Part shown: positions 1 through 41,596 of the stretch, one piece after another
Position numbering within the stretch: the stretch's first letter is position 1
Layout: every line of letters starts with the position of its first letter
Program-made: the position numbers and the translations under genes
Notes under the pieces: model-generated
The model's database searches: none
What the model was told of the DNA's origin: nothing
The model's input: the letters and a program-made list of their open reading frames with translations, nothing else
Assembly (NCBI GenBank): GCA_033182465.1
Contig: CP137323.1
Coordinates: 1,178,001-1,242,000 of the forward strand
Length of the DNA: 64,000 nt
Reading direction: 5' to 3'
Source of the DNA: Sanghuangporus weigelae
Taxonomy: Eukaryota; Basidiomycota; Agaricomycetes; Hymenochaetales; Hymenochaetaceae

Positions 1-712
1 TGCAACGGAGAAGCCAAAAGTTTACGTGAAGTCACTCCCTTGCATCATGCTAGGATGTGCCTTCACGCTGAAAGGCACTCCAATTACACTCTTTCTTCGA
101 AAAAACTCCATTTGGGGGTTGAAGAGCCGTAGGTAAACACCTGGAACTTCACTCCCAAATTGGTATAAAACTTATTCATTAACGACTTTATGATTTCTTT
201 CTTATCACTTTCAATTGCGTCATATTCTTTACATGATGCACATTTCATATTCATATCCCTTCCCACCACCCTTTACAAGTCAATGTCTTCCCAGACACCC
301 TTTTCACGACGTTCCTGCGAAGCAATACCTGCATTTTCGACGACCGGATCGATAACCTCAACGTCATAACCGAGCGCGAGGTGAACTCGAAGCGCGACAG
401 TAGTAACATCGCGCTGGAACGATTGCATTTCGAAGTCAGCCTCCTAGAGGATGATTAACAACTCGAAACGGCACAGAGCATGCATCACTTACCTGAGCAC
501 GCCTCTTACGCTCCAAAATCCAATGATTTATGCCGAAAATCGCGACAATAACGACAAAAACAGTAACAGCAGCGGCGACTTTCGACATTTTGGAGCAGAG
601 ATGATGATGGTTTGATAGCAAAAATCAACCATCACTAGGCGACCCTTTATCCGAGCTTTCTCACGGATTAGGATGAACATTTCTCCGAAAGTTCATCTTA
701 GGGGGGGTGTAG
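1..712 (+). mobile_element. Ty3/Gypsy chromovirus, 3' end of internal region (cut by window edge)
   Basis: This stretch matches the last 712 bp of the internal region of the array units further right (for example 13,225-13,936) wherever compared. It ends with a purine tract followed directly by the LTR at 713. The rest of this copy, or of an array it may belong to, lies left of the window, so its size and left target duplication cannot be seen. It is in the same orientation as the array at 3,158-37,809 but separated from it by 933 bp of host DNA, so it is a separate insertion. Confidence 0.93.
273..588 (-). CDS. predicted two-exon antisense gene for a small membrane protein (copy in the left element)
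   Basis: Exon 1 is 588-493 and exon 2 is 443-273 on the minus strand, separated by a 49-nt intron. The product would be 88 residues. Residues 4-20 form a hydrophobic membrane segment starting AAAVTVFVVIV, followed by a basic ERKRR stretch. The second exon gives a soluble acidic tail ending WEDIDL. The ATG has a strong fungal context (CCAAAATGTC), the donor is a textbook CAG|GTAAGT, the acceptor CTCTAG, and the frame is kept across the intron. It lies antisense to the element, just inside its 3' LTR. I do not recognise the protein. Expression is not shown by the sequence; chance is the alternative. Confidence 0.5.
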
Positions 713-3157: not shown

Positions 3158-3507
3158 TGAAAGGATCCGCTCAAAAACTCGCATCAGGATCGACACGATC
3201 AACAGATCTACACGATCAGCTTTCCAAACGCGACCGGTAACCAAGCCAGCTATCAAAGGCCCAAGCAATCGAGCGGCCTAGGCAACAGTAACCCGTTACC
3301 ACCCGAGCGCTAGAAGCACCGAAGCGGATACGTAATCCCGCTAACAGCTAACACCGCCGACCGCCTATTACCGCGGACTACCACTCTAACGCCGCCGACC
3401 AAGCAACCAGAGCGACCTCGATCAAAAGAAGCGATCAAACTTCTTAGAAGTCCAGAAGCACAACTACTAAAGCCTAAACGCTAAAAGGCTAAAGGCTAAT
3501 AAGGTTT

Positions 3508-4149
3508 ATGGAGACCTCACTGGCATTTCAGCACTGTCAAGTCTGTGCACGAGTTTACATGGTCCTTTATGAAGTATACTACTTAGTATGCACGGCAACA
3601 GTTGGTACGCGTGACTGTCACATCGAAACCGAGCGACACCTTCAAGATACAATGCATTCCAATCCACCAAACCCAGTGGTACCCAAGAAACGAGAGGAAC
3701 TCACGATCACAACTCGAACCCCTCGAACTGCGAACCCGATAACTTGGAGAATGATTGGATGGTATAGACCGGAGTTGCACACACCATGTCCAGCATCTAC
3801 GATACAGGCAAACCTTTATTTACCAAGAGATGCGAACCTGGAGACCAAGCAATTACAACTCCTTATACAACGAAGGATATGGCGCTACATTCGAGATATA
3901 CGATACGAAGGCAAAGCATGGCTAGTCACCAGAACCCAGCAGAACCCACCAGCAGAGCTTATGCAGTTCATGATATGCCTTGGACCATACTCTACACCGA
4001 CCCGACACCTTAACACTGACGTGCGAGTTATGCTTACCCTCGCTGGACCTCGAGATGAATTCCGAAGAATCACATACCGAGCAGCCTACATCGCTCCAAG
4101 AGCAAAGATGCCACTCAATGACGGCAATGACATCGTTATGGAGTACTGA
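3508..4149 (+). CDS. 213-codon open frame inside the LTR (U3)
   Basis: An uninterrupted ATG-to-stop frame lying wholly in U3, repeated in every full LTR of the window. The predicted protein is basic and hydrophilic after residue 40, has cysteines near its N-terminus (HCQVCARVY) and no obvious known motif. I do not recognise it. Because the predicted RNA start is downstream in R, the 5' LTR copy would not be on the element's own transcript, but the 3' LTR copy would lie in its 3' region, as with the U3-encoded accessory genes of some vertebrate retroviruses (MMTV sag, lentiviral nef). That comparison is of position only. A chance frame kept open by recent amplification remains possible. Confidence 0.45.
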   Translation: METSLAFQHCQVCARVYMVLYEVYYLVCTATVGTRDCHIETERHLQDTMHSNPPNPVVPKKREELTITTRTPRTANPITWRMIGWYRPELHTPCPASTIQANLYLPRDANLETKQLQLLIQRRIWRYIRDIRYEGKAWLVTRTQQNPPAELMQFMICLGPYSTPTRHLNTDVRVMLTLAGPRDEFRRITYRAAYIAPRAKMPLNDGNDIVMEY

Positions 4150-4151
4150 CA

Positions 4152-4319
4152 GTGGAGCATTCCATATCGGAGCACCACCTCTATTGTCTCAGTCAGCAAC
4201 TCCAAAGAATTCTGTCATAGTGGAGACGACCTTACAAAGATTGGAGCAAAGTGGAGCGAAGCGCAGCAGGATGACAAAGGAACAGATGTAATGGTGGAGG
4301 AAAGTGGAGTAAAGTGGAG
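4152..4319 (+). promoter_or_regulatory. cluster of six GTGGAG motifs upstream of the LTR TATA box
   Basis: GTGGAG occurs at 4152, 4220, 4251, 4294, 4304 and 4314. The last three are spaced exactly 10 bp apart, about one helical turn, and end some 45 bp before the TATA-like box. This looks like an activator-binding array, but the binding protein is unknown. The same cluster recurs in every LTR and twice in the duplicated last LTR. Confidence 0.45.
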
Positions 4320-4363
4320 ACAGGATGAGTAAGAAATAGGACGGAAAATGGAATATCTGGGAG

Positions 4364-4410
4364 CATAAATAGTTGTAGGATTAGGCCCTCATTTCCCCAT
4401 CTTTCGATCC
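4364..4410 (+). promoter_or_regulatory. LTR core promoter: TATA-like box and predicted RNA start
   Basis: CATAAATAG at 4364-4372 is followed 34 bp later by ATCTTTCGATCC (4399-4410), a good distance for a transcription start. These 12 nt are the exact reverse complement of the sequence just inside the internal region (4672-4683). That supports both the start position and self-priming. Equivalent sites occur in the other LTRs, for example 15178, 25957, 36736 and 37539. Confidence 0.6.
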
Positions 4411-4671
4411 TCTTAACACACTGGTGTAAAGCTTGCCCTACAGCGAGCTATTACTGTGTGCTTTGTACTATCACGCCTCTTGGAAATCCCAATCTGCTTT
4501 ACTATTACCTCGTATCTGAAAGCATCCATAACTCGGACCGTGACTAGGAAGGCTAGTAAGGGACCGCGTGGTACAGCCAGACGTGGGTAGATAAGATCAC
4601 CTCTGCACAACACACCGCTGCTTAGGCAAAAGGATCAAACCGGTGTAACCCCGGGCCTACTCCCTAACATT

Positions 4672-4730: not shown

Positions 4731-5072
4731 GTGTTTTATCGAGGCGAGGACCGTCGACCTCAAGTCCCTATCGACGTCACTAGTTTCGAGACTAGTACCC
4801 ATATCGAATCCTCAGGACAAGTGCACATCCTGGAGAACGACAAACCCGATTCACTTAAATCACATATCTACTATCATAACCCCTACAACGACGAAGTGTA
4901 CCTAATAGCAAAGGCATCTGGTAGCCCTGCAGTTGGGAGCACGCAAACAACAACCACGAAAGTAGCAGCAGTCCCTTCCACTATTGCTACATTCGACGAG
5001 AAAGGAACTACTTGGTTAACAGCACCAAGGAACAATAACCCTGAAGCATCAGGCGAGAAACGAAGTTCATGA
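4731..5072 (+). CDS. possible leader open frame before the coiled-coil gene
   Basis: An open stretch of 113 codons between the priming site and the coiled-coil frame. It contains no ATG in frame, so it would need a non-ATG start or an upstream exon. Its composition resembles the neighbouring frames (rich in T, S, N, P), and its end overlaps the next start as ATGA at 5069-5072, an arrangement used for stop-restart translation in some eukaryotic viruses and elements. Whether it is translated is doubtful. Confidence 0.25.
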   Translation: MFYRGEDRRPQVPIDVTSFETSTHIESSGQVHILENDKPDSLKSHIYYHNPYNDEVYLIAKASGSPAVGSTQTTTTKVAAVPSTIATFDEKGTTWLTAPRNNNPEASGEKRSS

Positions 5073-6103
5073 ACCGATCAGGAAACGCCAACAACAGAAG
5101 TAACGGTCATCGAACGAACGAACGGGCGAACGATAATCAAACGAGGTTCACACCTAGATCCCTCGACGAACGAGTTCAACATATCACCAACAGGCTACGA
5201 AGTCTGGAAAGCGATCACGACATACTATACGCGACAACGAACCACAGCATATTGTATCCACCAGTGATCAGAAGGCTACAAGAAAGGGTTGAAAGACTGG
5301 AAGAACGAACTGCAAACACGGGGCAGTCAAACAGTCTACCAACCGGAGCATACGCGACAGCAGTAGGAGATCGATTCGAAGCACTCGAAACAACTACTCG
5401 AAGAATTGGAGCACAGGTAGCAGCTCTAGAGAGATATACTCTGGAATTGGATCGAGCAGCAGGGGCACTCAATCAACGGGTCATAGACGGAAACGGAGTA
5501 CTTGACCGAGAGCTCAACGCTATCCGAAACAGGATTACTGCTCAGGAACAACAACTACAGACAATCGAGACGAGAATCGGAGAGCTTAACAGGACAGCTC
5601 TAGATCAGCCAAGGATTGTTCAAGACATCCATAACCTGCGAGAAGCCCTACTCCAACTAGGACAAACAATCGAGTCGAGTCAACGCACCTACGCAGCTAT
5701 ACTCACATCGGTACAGACAACCGAAGCTACCTCAAGGAACATACTCGAACACGCTCAACGAATTCGAGAAGTAGCTCAGGCAGCACAACGCTGGGAATAC
5801 TTTCTACCAAGAGAGAGAGCCCAACAGGAACAGAGTTCTGACGAATCAGTGTCCTCAGACGAAGAAGCATCACGAAGGCCATTCTTACTCAGAACCCCAC
5901 CTCGAACGGTTGTCATCCAAGTACCAACAGTACCTGCAGTACCAGCAAGTGGTTCAGTAGCAACCCAAGCGCCAGAGAATCCACCACCACCATCCTATTC
6001 ACCACCAGCAGTGCCCATAAGCACTTACGATCATGTCGACAACCGACCAGAAGGTGCAAGCACTGGAGCAGCAACTACAGACTCTTCAGACACAACTCTC
6101 TAA
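5069..6103 (+). CDS. coiled-coil protein upstream of gag, with a PPxY motif
   Basis: 344 codons. Residues 30-240 are rich in heptad-like L/I/E/R/Q patterns (for example RRLQERVERLEER), suggesting a long coiled coil. An acidic serine patch (SSDESVSSDEE) follows, then a proline-rich tail with PPPPSY near residue 305. PPxY is a recognised ligand for WW domains of Nedd4/Rsp5-type ubiquitin ligases and serves as a late (budding) motif in some retroviral Gag proteins; its use here is an inference. The last 71 nt overlap the start of gag in another frame. The protein may be a structural partner or N-terminal extension of Gag. I do not recognise a named family. Confidence 0.6.
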   Translation: MNRSGNANNRSNGHRTNERANDNQTRFTPRSLDERVQHITNRLRSLESDHDILYATTNHSILYPPVIRRLQERVERLEERTANTGQSNSLPTGAYATAVGDRFEALETTTRRIGAQVAALERYTLELDRAAGALNQRVIDGNGVLDRELNAIRNRITAQEQQLQTIETRIGELNRTALDQPRIVQDIHNLREALLQLGQTIESSQRTYAAILTSVQTTEATSRNILEHAQRIREVAQAAQRWEYFLPRERAQQEQSSDESVSSDEEASRRPFLLRTPPRTVVIQVPTVPAVPASGSVATQAPENPPPPSYSPPAVPISTYDHVDNRPEGASTGAATTDSSDTTL

Positions 6104-7121
6104 ACACAGCATCAAGCTTCCGAAGTACTATGGCAAGCGAAGCGAAGATATTGATCTGTGGATTAGTCGATGTATCTCGAAGCTGGCACAGCATGGAGTC
6201 AAGGATGAGGAGGAGATCGCAAAGAGCCTATTTGCGGCACTAGAAGGCGACAGCTACGATTGGTTTGCAGAGAAGAATACCCTAACATCATTCGATGCCA
6301 ATGGGAAACTGAAACCAGTACCTGCGATTATCGCTGCAACAAATGGAATGTTCGCATCACTCAAGGACATGCTGAACTGGATGAGGATCCGAGCAGGACA
6401 TCCGATCATTGGAGAACAGGAAGCCCTATTCCAACTACTATGCATCCAGCAGAAAGGAGCAAGCATTAGGGCGTACAACGACGAGTTCCGACGACTCAAA
6501 GCACGAGCACCAGACACGATGGATAAGCAGATGCTCAAGTACATCTATGTCAAAGGACTAGACATGTGGGTCAAACGACGAGTCGAATCTGTACAACCCG
6601 ACGCTTTCGAGAAGAACGACCTCGATGCATGGATGGAATGGACAAGCAACCTAGCAAACTCTGATGCCAGGCAAAGGCTCATGGGTAGTCAAACATACAC
6701 CCCGAGATTCAAATCGAACGGACAGTCATCTTTCCGACCACCAGTACAAACAACGAAACGAGATCCAGACGCCATGGATGTAGATGCACTCCGAGGCTTG
6801 CCGAAGAAGGGAGGCAAATGCTACAACTGTGAAAAGTCAGGACATTACGCAAAGGATTGCAAGGCACCAAGGAAGCAAAAGGGTTCTTCCTCTAAGCGGC
6901 CGAAGAAGACTAATGGTGTAAAACGGAGGACGATGACAACACGAACAATCGATTTCAAGGAAACATGTCCCGATCCACACTGCCGAAGGCCAGTCCACTA
7001 CGACCATGTAGCATGGGCTAAAGGCGATGAATCAGCAGGATGGACTTGCAAGCATGACGAAGAATACCGAAACAACATTCGCAAATCCCTAGCAAGTAAA
7101 GAGCAACAGGGAAAAGATTAA
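6033..7121 (+). CDS. gag: gag (capsid and nucleocapsid)
   Basis: 362 codons with an ATG start. A short N-terminal coiled coil is followed by the Ty3-type Gag core (residues about 30-220, with motifs such as KLPKYYGKRSEDIDLWI and LFQLLCIQQKGASIRAYNDE). A classical CX2CX4HX4C zinc knuckle (CYNCEKSGHYAKDC) lies near residue 265, within basic sequence. A second Cys/His cluster near the C-terminus (CPDPHCRRPVHYDH...CKHD) may bind another zinc. Function: assembly of virus-like particles and packaging of the element RNA. It overlaps the coiled-coil frame and lies 104 nt before pol. Confidence 0.93.
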   Translation: MSTTDQKVQALEQQLQTLQTQLSKHSIKLPKYYGKRSEDIDLWISRCISKLAQHGVKDEEEIAKSLFAALEGDSYDWFAEKNTLTSFDANGKLKPVPAIIAATNGMFASLKDMLNWMRIRAGHPIIGEQEALFQLLCIQQKGASIRAYNDEFRRLKARAPDTMDKQMLKYIYVKGLDMWVKRRVESVQPDAFEKNDLDAWMEWTSNLANSDARQRLMGSQTYTPRFKSNGQSSFRPPVQTTKRDPDAMDVDALRGLPKKGGKCYNCEKSGHYAKDCKAPRKQKGSSSKRPKKTNGVKRRTMTTRTIDFKETCPDPHCRRPVHYDHVAWAKGDESAGWTCKHDEEYRNNIRKSLASKEQQGKD

Positions 7122-7225: not shown

Positions 7226-10200
7226 ATGTACAATAAGCGATTGCCAATACAAGCATTGCATCCCCGATTACCTATTCGAGTGAAGGTTGGAACAAAGACC
7301 CTAGCAGTCAAAGCGTTAATCGATTCCGGAGCTACATGCAGCACGATACACCCCAACCTGGTACGACACTACAGCCTATTCAAAAAGAGGCTTGATCACC
7401 CTCGACCTTTGAATAATGCGGATGGAAGTCCCAACCAAGGAGGAGCAATCACGCACGAGGTCTACACATTAATTTTTGATGGACCTAAACCGCAGCCACA
7501 AACGTTGGCAGTAGCAACCACAGGACAGGATCAAGTGATCCTAGGAATTGACTATTTGGCCAAAGTCAATCCCGAAATTGATTGGAAGAATCAAGTATGG
7601 AATCGGAATGGTAATTCGATACCATTCGAGCTCAACGTCATACGAGCTACCAAGAAGCGAAGGCACAGGAAGCGCAAACGGAAACGGCAAACGAAAGGCA
7701 AACCTGACAAGACAAGACCTAGGCATAACACGAAGCAACAGGCTCAGGACAGAGACAACTATCGACACTCTGGAGCACCAGGAATAATATTTGCGCCAAG
7801 GAGAGACAACAACGGACACTCTCACGAAACGAAGCCACAAGCGAAGCCGGAAACCAGACCAGCAACACCAAGACTGGAACAGGCAAAACAGACGCCAGAA
7901 GTGAAGAGTCCGAGCACGGAAAATATACCAGACTCTGCAACGAAACAGCCACAACAGGAAACGGCAAACAAGCATCATCGAGATGAGGAGGAAATAAACT
8001 ACACTCCCAAGCGATGGAAGAAACAGGCACCACAAGGAACGAGTATAGTGCAACGACGACCAAGGCACATACCGAGACGGATGATCCCAGCATGGCAATT
8101 GTACCAGACATCCGAAGGCGAAACAGAAGAGATAACAGGCAAGCATAGCCTAGACGAACAGGAGGAAATAAACGACTCTCCGAAACGTTGGAAGAAACAA
8201 CCACCACAGAAGATACATCCACTGAGGCAAAACATGCCGGAAGATGAAGAACTCTGGCCATCACCAGAAGAAAACCCGGGCATGAAGTATAGGATACGAC
8301 CACGAAAGACACGGTATCCAGAGAAGCCAGTGGCAGGCATTATACGACCGAGAACGGCATCGTTAATGCGAGGAGCGAGTCCCACACCGAAGCGTACAAG
8401 ATGGGCAGACAACGAAAGCGATATCGAGATGCAAGACGAGCAGGAGACAACAGAAGACACTCCTATGCACGATATAGAGCCAGAAGACATTGAAAGTCTT
8501 AGGACGACCAACCAACCAGCTACCCTTACCAGAAAGGAAGAGCTTGCTGCAAAGCTAGAGCTAGACATCAATCGAAATTGGTCACCAAGGCAGCAGAACC
8601 AAGTCTCACAGCCTCTGAACAAAGCGAGTTCAGTATCCCAGCAGTATTCTCAACAAAAGGCAGCCGCAGAAGGACTACTAGGAACACAGAAACGAGATTG
8701 GCGAAAACTCCTACCAAAGGAAATAGAAGACTACGCAGATGTCTTTGATCCTGACAAGTCAAGAAGGTTACCCAAGCATACGAAATGGGATATGGCGATT
8801 AACCTCAAAGAAGGAGTACCATTACCGAAACCAAGGCCTATTATCAAGCTCACACGAGAAGAGCAGGCAGCACTCGATGCTTATGTCAAAGAGTTACTTG
8901 ACAAAGGATGGATTGAAAAGGTTCAACCACATGAACCATGTCCGGTAGCAGCACCAGTCTTCTTTGTAGGAAAGAAAGACGGAGGAGCACGAGCAGTAAC
9001 CGATTACCGAGACATCAACGACACGACAGTATCAGATCCATACCCGATACCGATCATGAGTGTTCTCCCAGAGAAACTGGAGAAAGGAAAATTCTTCTTT
9101 ACACTCGACATGCGATCAGGTTACAACAACCTGCGAATCCAAGAAGGAGACGAGTGGAAGGCAGCATTCCGAGTTGGCAATGCAGTCTACAAGCCAAAGG
9201 TCATGATGTTTGGAATGAAGAACTCACCTGCAGTATTCCAACGATTCATGAATGACAACTTCGAATATTGGCTCAGGACAGAAGAAGCACTCAACTATTT
9301 GGACGACCTTATTGGTCAAGCACAAACTGAAGAGGAACATTGGAAACTCCTCAGGGCAATTCTACAGAAATGCCGAGAGCTCGACATTTACCTCAAAATC
9401 GAGAAATGTCACTTCCTCCAAACCCAGCTCGACTACTTGGGATTTGTAGTAGGAACGAAAGGCATCCAGATGGATCCTTATAAGCTCAAAGCTATTCACG
9501 AATGGCCAGTGCCAAAGACGAAACGACAAGTTCGAAAGTTCCAAGGATTTTGTAACTTCTACCGAAGATTCATCAGGAACTATGCCGATACATTCGCACC
9601 TATTGGCGACCTTATCAAAAAGGATCGCAAGTTCATATGGGCAGAGGCACAAGATAAGGCATTCGAAAGTATCAAGAAGGCATTCGAAACGGAAGTCGCA
9701 TTGGCAATGCCAAAGCCAGACAAACCATATACATTGGAAACCGATGCATCCGATGTAGCGATTGGTGCAGTCTTACAACAAGAAGACAACCAAGGAGAAC
9801 TGAGACCTTTAGGTTTCATGTCGAAAACTCTAACGAACACCCAACGAAACTATCCGACGCATGACAAAGAGATGCTAGCAATCATGGAAGCACTCAAGCA
9901 TTGGAGACACCTATTGGAGGGAACCAAAGAACCAGTAACAATCCGAAGCGATCATGCAAATCTCCGATACTTCATGACAGCTCAGAATCTATCGAGACGT
10001 CAAGCGAGATGGGCATTAGAGTTATCACGATATAACTTCAAGATTCTCCATTGGCCAGGCAAGAAGAACCAAGCTGACGAGCTATCACGACGATCCGACT
10101 ATATGCCAGAGGACAAGGACAACTTAGGAGTTACCTTATTACCTCCTGATACGATCAAGCAACAAACATTGCGACGCACAGAGATCAACGGTCTATACAA

Positions 10201-11704
10201 GCTAGAAACTGAAATGGTCACTATCTCTGATCCTATTATCCGAACGATCAAGAGGAACTACAATACCGAGGAGGCTAAGAAGGAAATTCAGGCGATCAAG
10301 CAGAGCAACGGCTACAGTTACAGGAACGGCTTGCACTACGTAACCAATGCATTATATATCCCGCCGTCCGCCAACCTACGAGCGTTGCTAATCCGAAGGC
10401 GCCATGATCACAAACTTGCAGGCCACCCAGGAGCAGAAAAGACCATAGAGCTTGTAAAGCGATCATACTATTGGCCGAAGATGGAAGAAATGATCCGAGC
10501 ATATACCGCAACCTGCGACATATGTCAGCGTGCAAAACCGATTCGACAGTTTCGAAATCCGCCGCTCCAACCGTTGGAGGCACCACATCAACCATGGGAA
10601 ACCATAACCTGTGACCTGATTACCGACTTACCAGTTAGCAATGAAGGCTACAGTGCGATACTCGTTATAGTGGACAAACTCACTAAAATGGGGAAGTTCA
10701 TTCCTTGCCAAGGAATACCCAATGCTAAGCAGTTGGCACGTTTGTTCCGCCAACATGTCTTCAAATACTACGGGGCCCCTAAACGAGTAATCTCCGACCG
10801 AGGTAGCAACTTCACCGCGCAATTCCTCAAGGAGTTCTGCAGACTCATCGATGTCGATTGGAAAACTAGTACAGCGTATCATCCACAAACCGATGGTCAA
10901 ACCGAGCGACTAAATCAAGAGCTTGAACAGTACTTACGCTGCTATGTGTCCTACCGACAAACAGATTGGGCAGAGTACATCGATATAGCAGAATTCGCCT
11001 ACAACAACAGGAAGCACAGTACTACACATCAGTCACCATTCTATACACTGTATGGATGGCATCCTCACCTGGACGTTGCGGAGACCGGTGATTCAAACGT
11101 CCCAGAAGCAATAAATCACCTAGAGGAGCTTCGACAAGTACAGCAAGAAGCCTATAATTCGATTAGGCAAGCGAATGAGGCAATGAAGCTTTATGCAGAC
11201 CTGCATCGAGGCAAACTGCCAGAGTACAAGCCGGGAGACGAAGTGTTACTAGACATGAGGAATCTCAGTCGATTGGAACCAACGAAGAAACTTGCAATGA
11301 AATGGGCAGGGCCTTATAAAGTCGAGAAGGCAGTCGGACAAGTGTCATTCAGATTACGCTTACCCGAAACCCTTCCGATCCACCCAGTGTTTCATGCGAG
11401 TCTTCTCAGGCCTTACAAACGAAAGGAATACCCTGGAAGACCCACTTTGGATGAACCACCACCTATTGAAGTGGAGGGAGAAGCAGAGTACGAAGTGGAG
11501 ACGATTCATAATACAAGACGTCATCGGAGCAAGGTCCAATACCTTATCCAATGGAAAGGATACCAGGAGCGAACATGGGAGCCACTTGACAACCTCAAGA
11601 ACTCCTATCAAATGATCGAAGCATTCCATAAAAAGTATCCTCAGGCAATCCAGCCATCGAACCTTAACCAATGGATCGCCGCACGAAAACGAATGAGGCA
11701 ATAG
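7226..11704 (+). CDS. pol: pol polyprotein (protease, RT, RNase H, integrase, chromodomain)
   Basis: 1,492 codons. In order: aspartic protease (DSGATCST near residue 34); a long, charged low-complexity linker (about residues 140-460) with two related segments containing PKRWKKQ; reverse transcriptase with YLDDL; RNase H (TDASDVAIGAVL); integrase zinc region (HLAGHPG-type with CDICQRAK), its catalytic core (ISDRGSNF, YHPQTDGQTERLNQ) and the GPY/F module; then a chromodomain (YLIQWKGY...TWEPLDNL). This order is Ty3/Gypsy and the chromodomain places it among chromoviruses, which often integrate at heterochromatin. It is separated from gag and in another frame, so it needs a translation or processing strategy the sequence does not reveal. 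Confidence 0.96.
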   Translation: MYNKRLPIQALHPRLPIRVKVGTKTLAVKALIDSGATCSTIHPNLVRHYSLFKKRLDHPRPLNNADGSPNQGGAITHEVYTLIFDGPKPQPQTLAVATTGQDQVILGIDYLAKVNPEIDWKNQVWNRNGNSIPFELNVIRATKKRRHRKRKRKRQTKGKPDKTRPRHNTKQQAQDRDNYRHSGAPGIIFAPRRDNNGHSHETKPQAKPETRPATPRLEQAKQTPEVKSPSTENIPDSATKQPQQETANKHHRDEEEINYTPKRWKKQAPQGTSIVQRRPRHIPRRMIPAWQLYQTSEGETEEITGKHSLDEQEEINDSPKRWKKQPPQKIHPLRQNMPEDEELWPSPEENPGMKYRIRPRKTRYPEKPVAGIIRPRTASLMRGASPTPKRTRWADNESDIEMQDEQETTEDTPMHDIEPEDIESLRTTNQPATLTRKEELAAKLELDINRNWSPRQQNQVSQPLNKASSVSQQYSQQKAAAEGLLGTQKRDWRKLLPKEIEDYADVFDPDKSRRLPKHTKWDMAINLKEGVPLPKPRPIIKLTREEQAALDAYVKELLDKGWIEKVQPHEPCPVAAPVFFVGKKDGGARAVTDYRDINDTTVSDPYPIPIMSVLPEKLEKGKFFFTLDMRSGYNNLRIQEGDEWKAAFRVGNAVYKPKVMMFGMKNSPAVFQRFMNDNFEYWLRTEEALNYLDDLIGQAQTEEEHWKLLRAILQKCRELDIYLKIEKCHFLQTQLDYLGFVVGTKGIQMDPYKLKAIHEWPVPKTKRQVRKFQGFCNFYRRFIRNYADTFAPIGDLIKKDRKFIWAEAQDKAFESIKKAFETEVALAMPKPDKPYTLETDASDVAIGAVLQQEDNQGELRPLGFMSKTLTNTQRNYPTHDKEMLAIMEALKHWRHLLEGTKEPVTIRSDHANLRYFMTAQNLSRRQARWALELSRYNFKILHWPGKKNQADELSRRSDYMPEDKDNLGVTLLPPDTIKQQTLRRTEINGLYKLETEMVTISDPIIRTIKRNYNTEEAKKEIQAIKQSNGYSYRNGLHYVTNALYIPPSANLRALLIRRRHDHKLAGHPGAEKTIELVKRSYYWPKMEEMIRAYTATCDICQRAKPIRQFRNPPLQPLEAPHQPWETITCDLITDLPVSNEGYSAILVIVDKLTKMGKFIPCQGIPNAKQLARLFRQHVFKYYGAPKRVISDRGSNFTAQFLKEFCRLIDVDWKTSTAYHPQTDGQTERLNQELEQYLRCYVSYRQTDWAEYIDIAEFAYNNRKHSTTHQSPFYTLYGWHPHLDVAETGDSNVPEAINHLEELRQVQQEAYNSIRQANEAMKLYADLHRGKLPEYKPGDEVLLDMRNLSRLEPTKKLAMKWAGPYKVEKAVGQVSFRLRLPETLPIHPVFHASLLRPYKRKEYPGRPTLDEPPPIEVEGEAEYEVETIHNTRRHRSKVQYLIQWKGYQERTWEPLDNLKNSYQMIEAFHKKYPQAIQPSNLNQWIAARKRMRQ

Positions 11705-11879: not shown

Positions 11880-12956
11880 ATGGAGAACTTCGAGCTAAGG
11901 AACAACAACTCGAATCTCAACAGCTCTACTTCACTGCAGACGAACCACTACTCAGCTATGCCTATTTTCGACGAGCTACATGCATTCTGTCAACCAGAAG
12001 ATGCACCAGAATGGACATTTACACTCAGGCCACCGACCGAACGTTATCAATGGCCACAGCTGTGCAACCGATTCAACGAAGAGAACTACGAAGACGAAAT
12101 CGTACCCCTATGCCCAGGAAAGTACTTCGACGATCTATTTGACAAGTGGAACGCAGTCCACCACAACCGAGACGAAATACCCCATCTTATGATGGCGAAT
12201 CACTCAGACGAGTGGTTATTCAAACTCAGTAACCCTCGAGACGCAGCATTACGCCGACTCAATGATGATGCATTTCTAACCTACGCGATCGAACTCGAAA
12301 CACAAGCATTACATCGAGGCAAGATCGACTTTAGGCACGAAACGACATACAAGAACATCATGGGCATCTATCATTCGGCAATTCAAATTTGCGCCTACCG
12401 ACGAGACATGACTACCGCAATTCTTAACCGAATGATGCGATGGAGTCACTATCATCCGATGAGCATCGATGCGATGAAGTACATTATATACATAGCCGAC
12501 CAGACGGGCTTCTATGCATCCCACACCATGCAGTTCATGACGGTACTCAACATGACGAAGTATTACGAAGGAACGAGATACCGAACGGTTATTGAAGCAA
12601 GGAACTCTACTACGGACGAGGTACCACTCGACAACATCGAGCACCACGTAGTCGAAGGCAAAGAGGTTAACTACGACCCTCATTACCTTATGGAACTCAA
12701 CAACCGAGAGGAAGAAGCCAGAGAAAAACTACAGGCTACACGACACCCCTTGCTGGAAGATCTGATGATCTCAGTCTACCAGTACCCGAACGAACTCTAC
12801 CAGCCGGACGAGATGCTTACTATGTCGGAACAGGAGGACATGTACATACACTCCGACGATACAGAGTCAAGTGAAGAAGGTGAAAGCAGGGAACTATATA
12901 CCCCAGCGAACTCGGCCCAGACTACACCTGAGGCTGAAGAATCCGAAGATTTGTAA
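11880..12956 (+). CDS. unknown 358-codon gene downstream of pol
   Basis: An open frame in the position where env lies in retroviruses, but with no signal peptide and no membrane segment visible, so it does not look like an envelope. The protein is acidic. The first 30 residues are low-complexity (N/S-rich), the middle has aromatic-rich segments (for example YPNELYQPDEML late in the protein), and the C-terminal 35 residues are very acidic with serines. A TATA-like GTATAAAA lies just before the ATG; if it worked, initiation might instead use the next in-frame ATG near 11958. I do not recognise it. All three units keep it open with identical translation, as is trivially expected for very recent copies. 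Confidence 0.5.
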   Translation: MENFELRNNNSNLNSSTSLQTNHYSAMPIFDELHAFCQPEDAPEWTFTLRPPTERYQWPQLCNRFNEENYEDEIVPLCPGKYFDDLFDKWNAVHHNRDEIPHLMMANHSDEWLFKLSNPRDAALRRLNDDAFLTYAIELETQALHRGKIDFRHETTYKNIMGIYHSAIQICAYRRDMTTAILNRMMRWSHYHPMSIDAMKYIIYIADQTGFYASHTMQFMTVLNMTKYYEGTRYRTVIEARNSTTDEVPLDNIEHHVVEGKEVNYDPHYLMELNNREEEAREKLQATRHPLLEDLMISVYQYPNELYQPDEMLTMSEQEDMYIHSDDTESSEEGESRELYTPANSAQTTPEAEESEDL

Positions 12957-13496
12957 ACAACTCTTCTTTTATGCAACCCCTTTCCCATATCGTGACCCGA
13001 CATGGTCAATTATGCATTTCATTCTTACCTTATGATATTTATGGTCACATCCGACCAAATTATGCTTTATGCACCTCTTTATTTCACGCTTATTCGGCCA
13101 ACCAGCACAAATGAAGCACTATGCAGAAGTGTCAAAGAACCTACAAGGGCCTAGACATTTTGTATATTGTTTTATTGTGCCGGCTCCGAATTAGCAGATT
13201 ATGCCTACCTTTTATTATCCTCTATGCAACGGAGAAGCCAAAAGTTTACGTGAAGTCACTCCCTTGCATCATGCTAGGATGTGCCTTCACGCTGAAAGGC
13301 ACTCCAATTACACTCTTTCTTCGAAAAAACTCCATTTGGGGGTTGAAGAGCCGTAGGTAAACACCTGGAACTTCACTCCCAAATTGGTATAAAACTTATT
13401 CATTAACGACTTTATGATTTCTTTCTTATCACTTTCAATTGCGTCATATTCTTTACATGATGCACATTTCATATTCATATCCCTTCCCACCACCCT
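12957..13496 (+). other. 3' internal stretch without a sense gene
   Basis: About 540 bp between the 358-codon gene and the antisense gene. It is T-rich on the plus strand, unlike the A/C-rich coding part. Small open frames occur on both strands, including a 61-codon minus-strand one starting with GTG at 13493, but none shows convincing coding character. Confidence 0.4.
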
Positions 13497-13812
13497 TTAC
13501 AAGTCAATGTCTTCCCAGACACCCTTTTCACGACGTTCCTGCGAAGCAATACCTGCATTTTCGACGACCGGATCGATAACCTCAACGTCATAACCGAGCG
13601 CGAGGTGAACTCGAAGCGCGACAGTAGTAACATCGCGCTGGAACGATTGCATTTCGAAGTCAGCCTCCTAGAGGATGATTAACAACTCGAAACGGCACAG
13701 AGCATGCATCACTTACCTGAGCACGCCTCTTACGCTCCAAAATCCAATGATTTATGCCGAAAATCGCGACAATAACGACAAAAACAGTAACAGCAGCGGC
13801 GACTTTCGACAT
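13497..13812 (-). CDS. predicted two-exon antisense gene for a small membrane protein (unit 1)
   Basis: Same structure as at 273-588. Exons are 13812-13717 and 13667-13497. It ends before the 358-codon gene and starts about 125 bp inside the 3' LTR. On the minus strand a GGATAAAGG sequence lies some 60 bp before its ATG and might act as a weak TATA element. Antisense genes near the 3' LTR are known in human retroviruses (HTLV-1 HBZ, HIV-1 ASP); this comparison is positional only. Confidence 0.5.
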
Positions 13813-13895
13813 TTTGGAGCAGAGATGATGATGGTTTGATAGCAAAAATCAACCATCACTAGGCGACCCTTTATCCGAGCTTTCTCACGGATTAG

Positions 13896-13936
13896 GATGA
13901 ACATTTCTCCGAAAGTTCATCTTAGGGGGGGTGTAG
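13896..13936 (+). other. hairpin and polypurine tract before the 3' LTR
   Basis: GATGAAC and GTTCATC arms (13896-13921), extended inside by TTTC/GAAA, form a compact hairpin with a 3-nt loop. It is followed at once by AGGGGGGG and the LTR. The purine tract is where plus-strand DNA synthesis would be primed. The same arrangement occurs at 672-712 and before the other downstream LTRs. Confidence 0.6.
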
Positions 13937-15448
13937 TGAAAGGATCCGCTCAAAAACTCGCATCAGGATCGACACGATCAACAGATCTACACGATCAGCT
14001 TTCCAAACGCGACCGGTAACCAAGCCAGCTATCAAAGGCCCAAGCAATCGAGCGGCCTAGGCAACAGTAACCCGTTACCACCCGAGCGCTAGAAGCACCG
14101 AAGCGGATACGTAATCCCGCTAACAGCTAACACCGCCGACCGCCTATTACCGCGGACTACCACTCTAACGCCGCCGACCAAGCAACCAGAGCGACCTCGA
14201 TCAAAAGAAGCGATCAAACTTCTTAGAAGTCCAGAAGCACAACTACTAAAGCCTAAACGCTAAAAGGCTAAAGGCTAATAAGGTTTATGGAGACCTCACT
14301 GGCATTTCAGCACTGTCAAGTCTGTGCACGAGTTTACATGGTCCTTTATGAAGTATACTACTTAGTATGCACGGCAACAGTTGGTACGCGTGACTGTCAC
14401 ATCGAAACCGAGCGACACCTTCAAGATACAATGCATTCCAATCCACCAAACCCAGTGGTACCCAAGAAACGAGAGGAACTCACGATCACAACTCGAACCC
14501 CTCGAACTGCGAACCCGATAACTTGGAGAATGATTGGATGGTATAGACCGGAGTTGCACACACCATGTCCAGCATCTACGATACAGGCAAACCTTTATTT
14601 ACCAAGAGATGCGAACCTGGAGACCAAGCAATTACAACTCCTTATACAACGAAGGATATGGCGCTACATTCGAGATATACGATACGAAGGCAAAGCATGG
14701 CTAGTCACCAGAACCCAGCAGAACCCACCAGCAGAGCTTATGCAGTTCATGATATGCCTTGGACCATACTCTACACCGACCCGACACCTTAACACTGACG
14801 TGCGAGTTATGCTTACCCTCGCTGGACCTCGAGATGAATTCCGAAGAATCACATACCGAGCAGCCTACATCGCTCCAAGAGCAAAGATGCCACTCAATGA
14901 CGGCAATGACATCGTTATGGAGTACTGACAGTGGAGCATTCCATATCGGAGCACCACCTCTATTGTCTCAGTCAGCAACTCCAAAGAATTCTGTCATAGT
15001 GGAGACGACCTTACAAAGATTGGAGCAAAGTGGAGCGAAGCGCAGCAGGATGACAAAGGAACAGATGTAATGGTGGAGGAAAGTGGAGTAAAGTGGAGAC
15101 AGGATGAGTAAGAAATAGGACGGAAAATGGAATATCTGGGAGCATAAATAGTTGTAGGATTAGGCCCTCATTTCCCCATCTTTCGATCCTCTTAACACAC
15201 TGGTGTAAAGCTTGCCCTACAGCGAGCTATTACTGTGTGCTTTGTACTATCACGCCTCTTGGAAATCCCAATCTGCTTTACTATTACCTCGTATCTGAAA
15301 GCATCCATAACTCGGACCGTGACTAGGAAGGCTAGTAAGGGACCGCGTGGTACAGCCAGACGTGGGTAGATAAGATCACCTCTGCACAACACACCGCTGC
15401 TTAGGCAAAAGGATCAAACCGGTGTAACCCCGGGCCTACTCCCTAACA
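13937..15448 (+). repeat. LTR 2 of the array (shared by units 1 and 2)
   Basis: 1,512 bp, same ends and content as LTR 1. There is no target duplication on either side; internal regions abut it directly, so it serves as 3' LTR of unit 1 and 5' LTR of unit 2. Confidence 0.96.
14287..14928 (+). CDS. U3 open frame, LTR 2 copy
   Basis: 213 codons, identical in translation to the frame at 3508-4149. Here it sits where it could be carried in the 3' part of a unit 1 transcript. Confidence 0.4.
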   Translation: METSLAFQHCQVCARVYMVLYEVYYLVCTATVGTRDCHIETERHLQDTMHSNPPNPVVPKKREELTITTRTPRTANPITWRMIGWYRPELHTPCPASTIQANLYLPRDANLETKQLQLLIQRRIWRYIRDIRYEGKAWLVTRTQQNPPAELMQFMICLGPYSTPTRHLNTDVRVMLTLAGPRDEFRRITYRAAYIAPRAKMPLNDGNDIVMEY

Positions 15449-15847
15449 TTGGATCGAAAGATCACTCGCTAGTTTTACCACCACCTCTCACGGGCAAGGT
15501 TCTTGGCTAGTGTTTTATCGAGGCGAGGACCGTCGACCTCAAGTCCCTATCGACGTCACTAGTTTCGAGACTAGTACCCATATCGAATCCTCAGGACAAG
15601 TGCACATCCTGGAGAACGACAAACCCGATTCACTTAAATCACATATCTACTATCATAACCCCTACAACGACGAAGTGTACCTAATAGCAAAGGCATCTGG
15701 TAGCCCTGCAGTTGGGAGCACGCAAACAACAACCACGAAAGTAGCAGCAGTCCCTTCCACTATTGCTACATTCGACGAGAAAGGAACTACTTGGTTAACA
15801 GCACCAAGGAACAATAACCCTGAAGCATCAGGCGAGAAACGAAGTTC

Positions 15848-24275: not shown

Positions 24276-24591
24276 TTACAAGTCAATGTCTTCCCAGACA
24301 CCCTTTTCACGACGTTCCTGCGAAGCAATACCTGCATTTTCGACGACCGGATCGATAACCTCAACGTCATAACCGAGCGCGAGGTGAACTCGAAGCGCGA
24401 CAGTAGTAACATCGCGCTGGAACGATTGCATTTCGAAGTCAGCCTCCTAGAGGATGATTAACAACTCGAAACGGCACAGAGCATGCATCACTTACCTGAG
24501 CACGCCTCTTACGCTCCAAAATCCAATGATTTATGCCGAAAATCGCGACAATAACGACAAAAACAGTAACAGCAGCGGCGACTTTCGACAT
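24276..24591 (-). CDS. predicted antisense membrane-protein gene, unit 2
   Basis: Exons 24591-24496 and 24446-24276, same splice sites as in the other copies. Confidence 0.5.
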
Positions 24592-35054: not shown

Positions 35055-35370
35055 TTACAAGTCAATGTCTTCCCAGACACCCTTTTCACGACGTTCCTGC
35101 GAAGCAATACCTGCATTTTCGACGACCGGATCGATAACCTCAACGTCATAACCGAGCGCGAGGTGAACTCGAAGCGCGACAGTAGTAACATCGCGCTGGA
35201 ACGATTGCATTTCGAAGTCAGCCTCCTAGAGGATGATTAACAACTCGAAACGGCACAGAGCATGCATCACTTACCTGAGCACGCCTCTTACGCTCCAAAA
35301 TCCAATGATTTATGCCGAAAATCGCGACAATAACGACAAAAACAGTAACAGCAGCGGCGACTTTCGACAT
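35055..35370 (-). CDS. predicted antisense membrane-protein gene, unit 3
   Basis: Exons 35370-35275 and 35225-35055, same splice sites as in the other copies. Confidence 0.5.
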
Positions 35371-40205: not shown

Positions 40206-40364
40206 CCGGGGCCACTAGTACTACTATTCATGTACTTTGACAGGGTCGGTGTAAGACTCTCAAAATTTCGGAAGAAGCAAGTCAAACTGAAGACATTCAA
40301 TTGTGGTTCCAGTGGATCCTGCCAACAGTAAGATATTTGACAACATCATTATGCTTTATCATTA

Positions 40365-41448
40365 CAGCCGTTTGCAAAAGTAATGAGAATCACGTGATTT
40401 CACCACTTTTCTCGCCATGAGAGCCTCAAAACACAGATAAAATCATATCTCACCCAAATCTCAATGGTTTCACATCATCTAAGTTGCTAAATTCATCTTT
40501 TCGAAAGGGCTTTTGCTTAAAGAAAACTGTAGAGAAAATAGAGCGAAAAATGACCCTAAAATGGCGAAAATATCGGTTTTTGCCTCTTCCTTGCATGTGC
40601 AATTTTTTCTGTGATCCCTGCTGGTCCAGCACCTCCCCAAAGCTATCCAGAATGATAATATGATTATAAAATGAATTTACAGACTGAGTTTGAGCTGAAT
40701 TGTGTACCAGAATGTGCTGCTTTGAGGCATGCCTGAATCACTCAAAACTCATCATTTCCCCCTAGCCTCCCAGGCTCCAGGAAAAATTCTTACAGGCCAG
40801 ATTCATGCATGTAAATTCATTTTGGATATAATAGACTAGGTTTGTGTACTAGCTAAGGCCTCAGCATCCACTGGTGAGCTGGGAAGATGCTGTCTAAAAT
40901 GATGCATACAACCAGAATCACTTGTTCAGCCCAGCTCACCAGTGGATGCTGAGGCCTTAGCTAGTACACAAACCTAGTCTATTATATCCAAAATGAATTT
41001 ACATGCATGAATCTGGCCTGTAAGAATTTTTCCTGGAGCCTGGGAGGCTAGGGGGAAATGATGAGTTTTGAGTGATTCAGGCATGCCTCAAAGCAGCACA
41101 TTCTGGTACACAATTCAACTCAAACTCAGTCTGTAAATTCATTTTATAATCATATTATCATTCTGGATAGCTTTGGGGAGGTGCTGGACCAGCAGGGATC
41201 ACAGAAAAAATTGCACATGCAAGGAAGAGGCAAAAACCGATATTTTCGCCATTTTAGGGTCATTTTTCGCTCTATTCTCTCTACAGTTTTCTTTAAGCAA
41301 AAGCCCTTTCGAAAAGATGAATTTAGCAATTTAGATGATGTGAAACCGTTGAGATTTGGGTGAGATATGATTTTATCTGTGTTTTGAGGCTCTCATGGCG
41401 AGAAAAGTGGTGAAATCACGTGATTCTCATTACTTTTGCAAACGGCTG
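40365..41448. mobile_element. near-perfect 1,084-bp foldback element
   Basis: Two arms of 519 bp (40365-40883 and 40930-41448) are inverted copies of each other with about three mismatches noticed, around a 46-nt loop. The ends are CAGCCGTTTGC and its complement, flanked by TA (40363-40364 and 41449-41450). Because of the inverted symmetry, each arm shows the same 60-codon frame on opposite strands; this is not evidence of a gene. If transcribed, the RNA would fold into a very long hairpin. Confidence 0.88.
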
Positions 41449-41596
41449 TAAATCATATAAAATTAGGACACGGAAAATTAGGACACGGATTTGACGTTCA
41501 GAAGTCACAGTCATTCTCCTCTTCGCCAGATTAGACTCCACATTATCCAACTCGATAGTGCTCTTAGGTTTCTGTACCATTCCTGCCTATTCGCGC

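Follow-up and report, generated by a model that had tools for sequence, protein, structure and literature searches.

An antisense gene in a chromovirus-type element

The analysed window, a stretch of 64,000 nucleotides from contig CP137323.1 of the medicinal polypore Sanghuangporus weigelae, carries copies of an LTR-flanked Ty3/gypsy element of the chromovirus type, in which reverse transcriptase (RT), RNase H, integrase and a chromodomain are encoded in a single pol. Between ORF3, which follows pol, and the 3' LTR of this element, on the strand opposite to gag-pol, lies a small gene with one intron. The features of one element copy, together with the further copies of the antisense gene in the window, are as follows:

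3158..4669, plus: first LTR of a tandem array and 5' LTR of this element copy
5069..6103, plus: sense ORF upstream of gag, coiled-coil-like, no Pfam family over the cut-off
6033..7121, plus: gag, with a zinc knuckle over the cut-off and Retrotrans_gag just below it
7226..11704, plus: pol, with RT, RNase H, integrase and chromodomain over the cut-off and a protease-like match just below it
11880..12956, plus: ORF3, 358 aa, no Pfam family over the cut-off
13497..13667, minus: exon 2 of the antisense gene, 56 codons and TAA, with the conserved C-terminal stretch AGIxxQExREKGxWE
13668..13716, minus: intron of 49 nt, GTAAGT...CTCTAG
13717..13812, minus: exon 1, ATG, 32 codons, membrane segment at about residues 5-24, then basic ERKRR
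13813..13936: spacer of 124 nt from ATG to LTR, with hairpins; candidate antisense promoter or 5' UTR and candidate element on the polypurine tract side
13924..13931, plus: AGGGGGGG, polypurine tract-like, adjoining the 3' LTR; putative role
13937..15448, plus: LTR of 1,512 bp, TG...CA, serving as 3' LTR here and as 5' LTR of the next copy in the array
273..588, minus: identical antisense gene copy in a neighbouring element
24276..24591, minus: identical antisense gene copy in the tandem array
35055..35370, minus: identical antisense gene copy in the tandem array

The architecture outlined in a preliminary description of this DNA, namely a minus-strand ATG, an exon of 32 codons, a CAG/GTAAGT donor, a 49-nt intron and an in-phase exon of 56 codons, is present in full. 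The start codon stands in the context CAAAATG, the acceptor is CTAG, and the intron contains, 11-15 nt before its end, the branch-like word TTAAT (CTAAT at the same place in two diverged genomic copies, L061 and L071), a putative branch site. In the spliced 88-aa product, four residues precede a hydrophobic segment, which leads through a basic run into a tail some 60 residues long. Hydropathy bears out the membrane segment that had been placed in exon 1: it is the only one in the protein, with a Kyte-Doolittle mean of 2.16 over residues 5-24, and the same segment in seven relatives has means of 1.81-2.25. The predicted model of the S. baumii homolog P0005, built from a seven-sequence alignment, is of low to moderate confidence (mean pLDDT 71, pTM 0.31); a long helix spans the membrane segment, where local confidence is good, and confidence elsewhere is poor. 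A fold search of the PDB gave six matches at E values up to 10, none of them reaching E 0.001, a sequence search of the PDB only an ErbB-2 segment at E 0.6, and in Pfam the best E values for the window's antisense protein and for P0005 were 0.039 and 0.036, with no family over the cut-off.

The base use also changes here, as had been proposed, with A at 0.12 of the third positions in the antisense exons against 0.28-0.45 in the sense ORFs of the element; in three window frames taken by eye as host genes this share is 0.20-0.22. The characterization of the antisense codons as GTC/GCC/CTC-type is only roughly right, the commonest third-position base being T (0.39) and not C (0.24).

The 316-nt stretch that holds the gene is found letter-identical at 273, 13497, 24276 and 35055, in agreement with the repeats listed in the preliminary description. 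The region 3158-37809 is a tandem array of the order LTR-internal-LTR-internal-LTR-internal-LTR. It is bordered at both outer sides by CGGAC, as though all three internal regions lay within a single target-site duplication. Beyond the last LTR of the array lies a repeat of that LTR's final 803 bp, and upstream of the array an LTR at 713-2224, followed by AATTG, closes a separate element copy of the same family. Within the element, the 344-aa ORF at 5069-6103 overlaps the start of gag by 71 nt in a different frame and is possibly a frameshift-linked gag partner. Four Sanghuangporus species have ORF3 homologs, at 50-98% (6 proteins among 861 candidates).

The spacer at 13813-13936 folds better than its shuffles on both strands (z -2.4 and -2.1). 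It includes a hairpin at 13885-13936, beside the polypurine tract, with the arms GATGAAC/GTTCATC; both arms are found in 11 of 12 other aligned copies, the twelfth (L062) ending at the alignment edge. Either the antisense promoter or a sense-strand element close to the polypurine tract may lie in this spacer, or both may. Rfam models gave nothing up to E 1 over 13000-15500, and a promoter and terminator scan, with bacterial models unsuited to a fungus, returned the same counts as shuffles.

Presence and coding constraint across the family

With the S. baumii protein P0005 as query, tblastn yielded at least 109 matches to exon 2 in the S. weigelae genome itself, and with P0009 at least 107 matches to exon 1 were listed, none with a stop by a count made by eye; these searches scored 150 of 217 candidates. 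A total of 103 RT copies were assigned to the family by hand on the basis of score and span, out of 150 rows scored among 184 candidates, and 100 of these 103 have an exon-2 match downstream on the opposite strand (98 at 4.53-4.55 kb, two at 5.6 and 6.0 kb), leaving three without one. Nine of the at least 109 exon-2 matches are without a paired RT in the list used. The RT pairing and the exon match counts thus establish the antisense gene as a regular part of the element family. This family has burst: when the best 40 of 111 candidates were scored, all 40 were at 99-100% identity over 501 bases. In the 3' regions of other RT families (L093 and L094) there was no P0005 match among the matches listed; that of L093 has ORFs of 291 aa (sense) and 112 aa (antisense).

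For the analysis of selection, 62 genomic copies were aligned, a non-random set of the 30 best DNA matches and 32 protein matches hand-picked to include diverged ones. Spliced at homologous sites, 61 of these 62 retain the 88-codon frame, in a set where broken copies are under-sampled because it was fetched by likeness to the antisense gene; the exception, L071, has one stop. There is no frameshifting indel in the 62 aligned copies, and 60 of them combine an intact frame with a GTRAGT donor, that of L067 being one base short (GTAGTG).

Substitution among related copies, to which the preliminary description had pointed as informative, proved to be biased towards synonymous change. Over 61 rows, made up of 60 copies plus the sequence of the window, itself one of the 60, and leaving out the diverged L061 and L071, there are 32 synonymous, 31 replacement and no stop variants, against 19.0, 40.4 and 3.5 expected if the same base changes are placed at random. 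None of 20000 trials equalled the synonymous count while also being free of stops, and the synonymous count alone was reached in 0.0002-0.0004 of trials. The corresponding frequencies for single exons are 0.0056 and 0.0188, or, when stops are included, 0.0028 and 0.0024. No synonymous excess is seen in the other two antisense frames or in two of the sense frames (0.96-0.996), and the flanks and intron read as coding have no significant one (the lowest of nine frames being 0.094). The remaining sense frame, which has its third positions in common with the antisense frame, shows an excess of 29 over 18.4 (0.0020) but has four stops in the window.

The diverged copies extend this picture. The exons of L061 and L071 are 31-35% different from those of the window without a single gap in 267 coding positions, and the differences at the three codon positions are 31/15/38 for L061 and 29/24/40 for L071. 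The dN/dS against the window (NG86, a simple count) is 0.21 for L061 and 0.28 for L071; L068, L069 and L070 have 0.17, 0.30 and 0.24, respectively. In both L061 and L071 the intron has 50 nt rather than 49, with GT...AG kept, so that the unspliced frame shifts and the spliced frame stays. The proposal of a spliced antisense protein-coding gene in a Ty3 element is thus sustained: diverged relatives have kept both the frame and the splice sites. An ORF arisen by chance is ruled out by conservation.

Since L061 and L071 have decayed, largely via C-to-T and G-to-A changes, we used shuffles that keep the substitution spectrum. As few stops together with as much amino-acid identity occurred in 0.0002 of 5000 shuffles for each of the two. 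In nearer copies this joint test is weaker (L068 0.0038, L069 0.026, L070 0.029, L079 0.081, L066 0.60). Taken alone, the synonymous-codon count of L061 has a shuffle frequency of 0.062, and the retention of hydrophobicity (0.25 for L061, 0.038 for L071) is not telling. Between L061 and L071 the dN/dS is 0.43, and lower, 0.35, in a shifted frame, as would be expected if each had decayed independently. The L061 copy, at C9:1703300-1703850, is followed by LTR-like sequence that by eye has the opposite orientation to that expected, which suggests that this copy is nested or has been rearranged.

The 88 nt upstream of the ATG (13813-13900) differ from the window by 16% in L061 and 8% in L071, and the downstream flank by 26% in L061 (31 positions compared, 26 gapped) and 12% in L071. 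As the flanks differ less than the exons, cis elements located there are probably also under selection. The polymorphism counts and the diverged copies without a coding indel, in turn, point to an accessory gene under purifying selection. Together with the gene structure, the near-universal presence in the family and the conserved splice sites and frame, all as read from DNA, they make it very probable that this is a selected accessory membrane-protein gene of the Ty3/gypsy element.

Homologs in Sanghuangporus and antisense genes of other elements

Queried with the 88-aa sequence, a set of 5.8 billion proteins yielded five matches, all of 88 aa and all from Sanghuangporus: one from S. weigelae (95%) and four from S. 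baumii (57-63%). A profile (A2), built without L071, which has a stop, recovered seven from the same set, of which two are new and both from S. baumii, one of 88 aa at 58% (P0008) and one of 91 aa at 46% (E 5.8e-20). Neither search of this protein set found a homolog beyond Sanghuangporus, and a scan of IMG/VR with profile A2 gave 22 pattern matches, none of them a relative. The seven relatives keep the N-terminal MSKV, RR in the basic run, ExMQS and the C-terminal AGI..Q.E.REKG.WE, and the middle of the protein is variable in sequence and length. No homolog from S. sanghuang or S. vaninii was found in the protein set, though ORF3 homologs from these species were, a lack for which annotation gaps and real absence would account alike.

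In S. baumii, the antisense homolog at 58% is ACEPAG_5826 and the ORF3 homolog is ACEPAG_5827; these consecutive tags indicate that the neighbourhood is probably kept, though tags do not prove orientation. In what is seemingly one S. baumii element, the antisense protein (58%, P0008) and ORF3 (50%, P0015) are about equally conserved. Four Sanghuangporus genomes have been annotated with BRAKER3, the ACEPAI tags being those of S. weigelae, and we infer that ACEPAG denotes the S. baumii assembly of the same study (PMC12001456). The available part of that paper mentions no RNA data of its own, so the annotated homologs would be predictions rather than transcripts. The exact sequence of the annotated S. 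weigelae protein (P0003) is absent from the 62 translated genomic copies.

Several known antisense genes invite comparison. HIV-1 ASP is, like the product described here, an antisense membrane protein, but it overlaps env, is not known to be spliced and belongs to an animal retrovirus. HBZ of HTLV-1 has a spliced form; it differs in being a nuclear protein of an animal retrovirus, with its promoter inside the 3' LTR. The brtn gene of the fungal element Boty is reportedly the subject of Zhao et al. 2011. The preliminary description had attributed antisense genes near the 3' LTR to a few animal retroviruses, which is correct for cases such as HBZ (PMC7264820, PMC11963269); the accessible portions of the literature add plant Ty3 elements and Boty.

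In these portions brtn is presented as an additional antisense gene of Boty (BcGypsy1) of Botrytis cinerea (PMC7264820, PMC8365987, PMC4227169), one paper writing brtn-106. Like the present gene, it belongs to a fungal Ty3/gypsy element that has a chromodomain besides gag-pol; its host is an ascomycete, unlike Sanghuangporus, and brtn is compared here by description only. No Botrytis protein was among the protein-set matches to the antisense protein or profile A2. The aORF-3R genes of plant Ty3 elements (maize Grande gene23, rice RIRE2, Silene Retand) are described, in the part of the source at hand, as lying antisense between pol and the 3' LTR, occurring in most copies and being conserved like element proteins (PMC7264820). 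The window gene resembles them in position and orientation, in its presence in most copies and in being conserved like the other proteins of its element. Grande has an antisense promoter upstream of gene23 (PMC7264820), and its antisense protein is described there as nuclear, in contrast to the membrane segment of the Sanghuangporus protein. Most antisense frames of Retand are long and encode a TRP28 domain, for which DNA binding is predicted (PMC11963269, as far as available); this domain (PF04195) was not matched in our antisense protein in Pfam up to E 10. Within the accessible text, neither an intron nor a membrane segment is named for the plant antisense proteins, and the functions of the plant genes are described as not yet known (PMC7264820). 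In light of brtn in fungal Boty and the plant genes, an antisense gene in an LTR element is of a known kind, whereas the spliced membrane-protein form appears to be new: we found no report of one in a fungal LTR element, a weak negative from a search covering few subscription papers.

A possible role and its alternatives

Read opposite to gag-pol and spliced once, the gene would be translated to a single-pass membrane protein of 88 aa. Its transcription would start within the conserved stretch just inside the 3' LTR. Under the positive-inside rule, the basic residues after the membrane segment would place the tail of about 60 residues in the cytosol, where this tail and the conserved C-terminal stretch would most likely tether Gag or ORF3 particles to an internal membrane. 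We put forward only tentatively that the protein helps the element by such tethering. Given the retrotransposon life cycle, the antisense orientation would leave no intron in the sense genomic RNA to be spliced, and hence the intron could survive reverse transcription; the gene thereby illustrates how a retroelement can keep an intron. In its fullest form, which we hold with the same reserve, the proposal is that this genus-specific spliced antisense gene may encode a retrovirus-like accessory membrane protein recruiting element particles to a membrane, its intron tolerated only as it is read backwards in the genomic RNA. It would then be the first case outside animals of an LTR element with a spliced antisense gene for a membrane protein. 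Irrespective of role, the constraint on the frame offers direct evolutionary evidence that a mushroom LTR retrotransposon maintains a separate antisense protein gene. The small size of the gene, its clear membrane anchor, its conserved ends and the many near-identical copies render its role accessible to test.

A small element-borne membrane protein that is expressed apart from gag-pol could conceivably also restrain the element, by copy-number or superinfection control, and the p22 form of Ty1 Gag, which restrains Ty1, provides a model. We consider this rather unlikely, since a restraining gene should be freely lost in a burst, yet the family has burst to the near-identity of copies noted above, about 100 RT copies carry the gene and all but one of the examined frames are full. 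This persistence argues for help and against restraint, without proving it. Another origin, suggested in the preliminary description, is the capture of a host gene complete with its intron; such a gene may still influence a host pathway. The presence of the intron and a third-position A share nearer to the three presumed host frames than to gag-pol are consistent with capture. The absence of any Pfam family over the cut-off, the confinement of homologs to Sanghuangporus among the 5.8 billion proteins and the pairing of 100 of the at least 109 own-genome exon-2 matches with an element RT (nine being unpaired in the list used) lend capture little support, and we likewise deem it not probable.

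It is a good deal more doubtful that selection acts on a cis element close to the polypurine tract, or on an antisense RNA without coding function, and that the reading frame is incidental. Such a constraint would suit the stretch 13813-13900, which is the best conserved (8-16% different, against 31-35% for the exons), and the folding of the spacer. It does not sit with a synonymous excess in the spliced antisense frame that is lacking from the other two antisense and two of the three sense frames, nor with the protein-level conservation at 46-63% identity or the want of frameshifting indels. Finally, we give practically no credence to an env-like or other sense-strand protein as the source of constraint: a sense frame running through the joined exons is free of stops in the window copy, but it has three stops in L061 and one in L071, and its synonymous variants number 13 against 21 expected. 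These stops and the absent synonymous excess rule out a sense-strand protein, and the orientation of the gene is not sense. An accessory antisense membrane-protein gene is, accordingly, the reading that we prefer.

Two further observations concern the surroundings of the gene. A 213-aa frame within the LTR, at 14287-14928, is A-rich like the sense ORFs, has no Pfam match and is present in five identical copies in the window. At 40362-41451, there are two inverted arms of 522 nt, 46 nt apart and 99% complementary.
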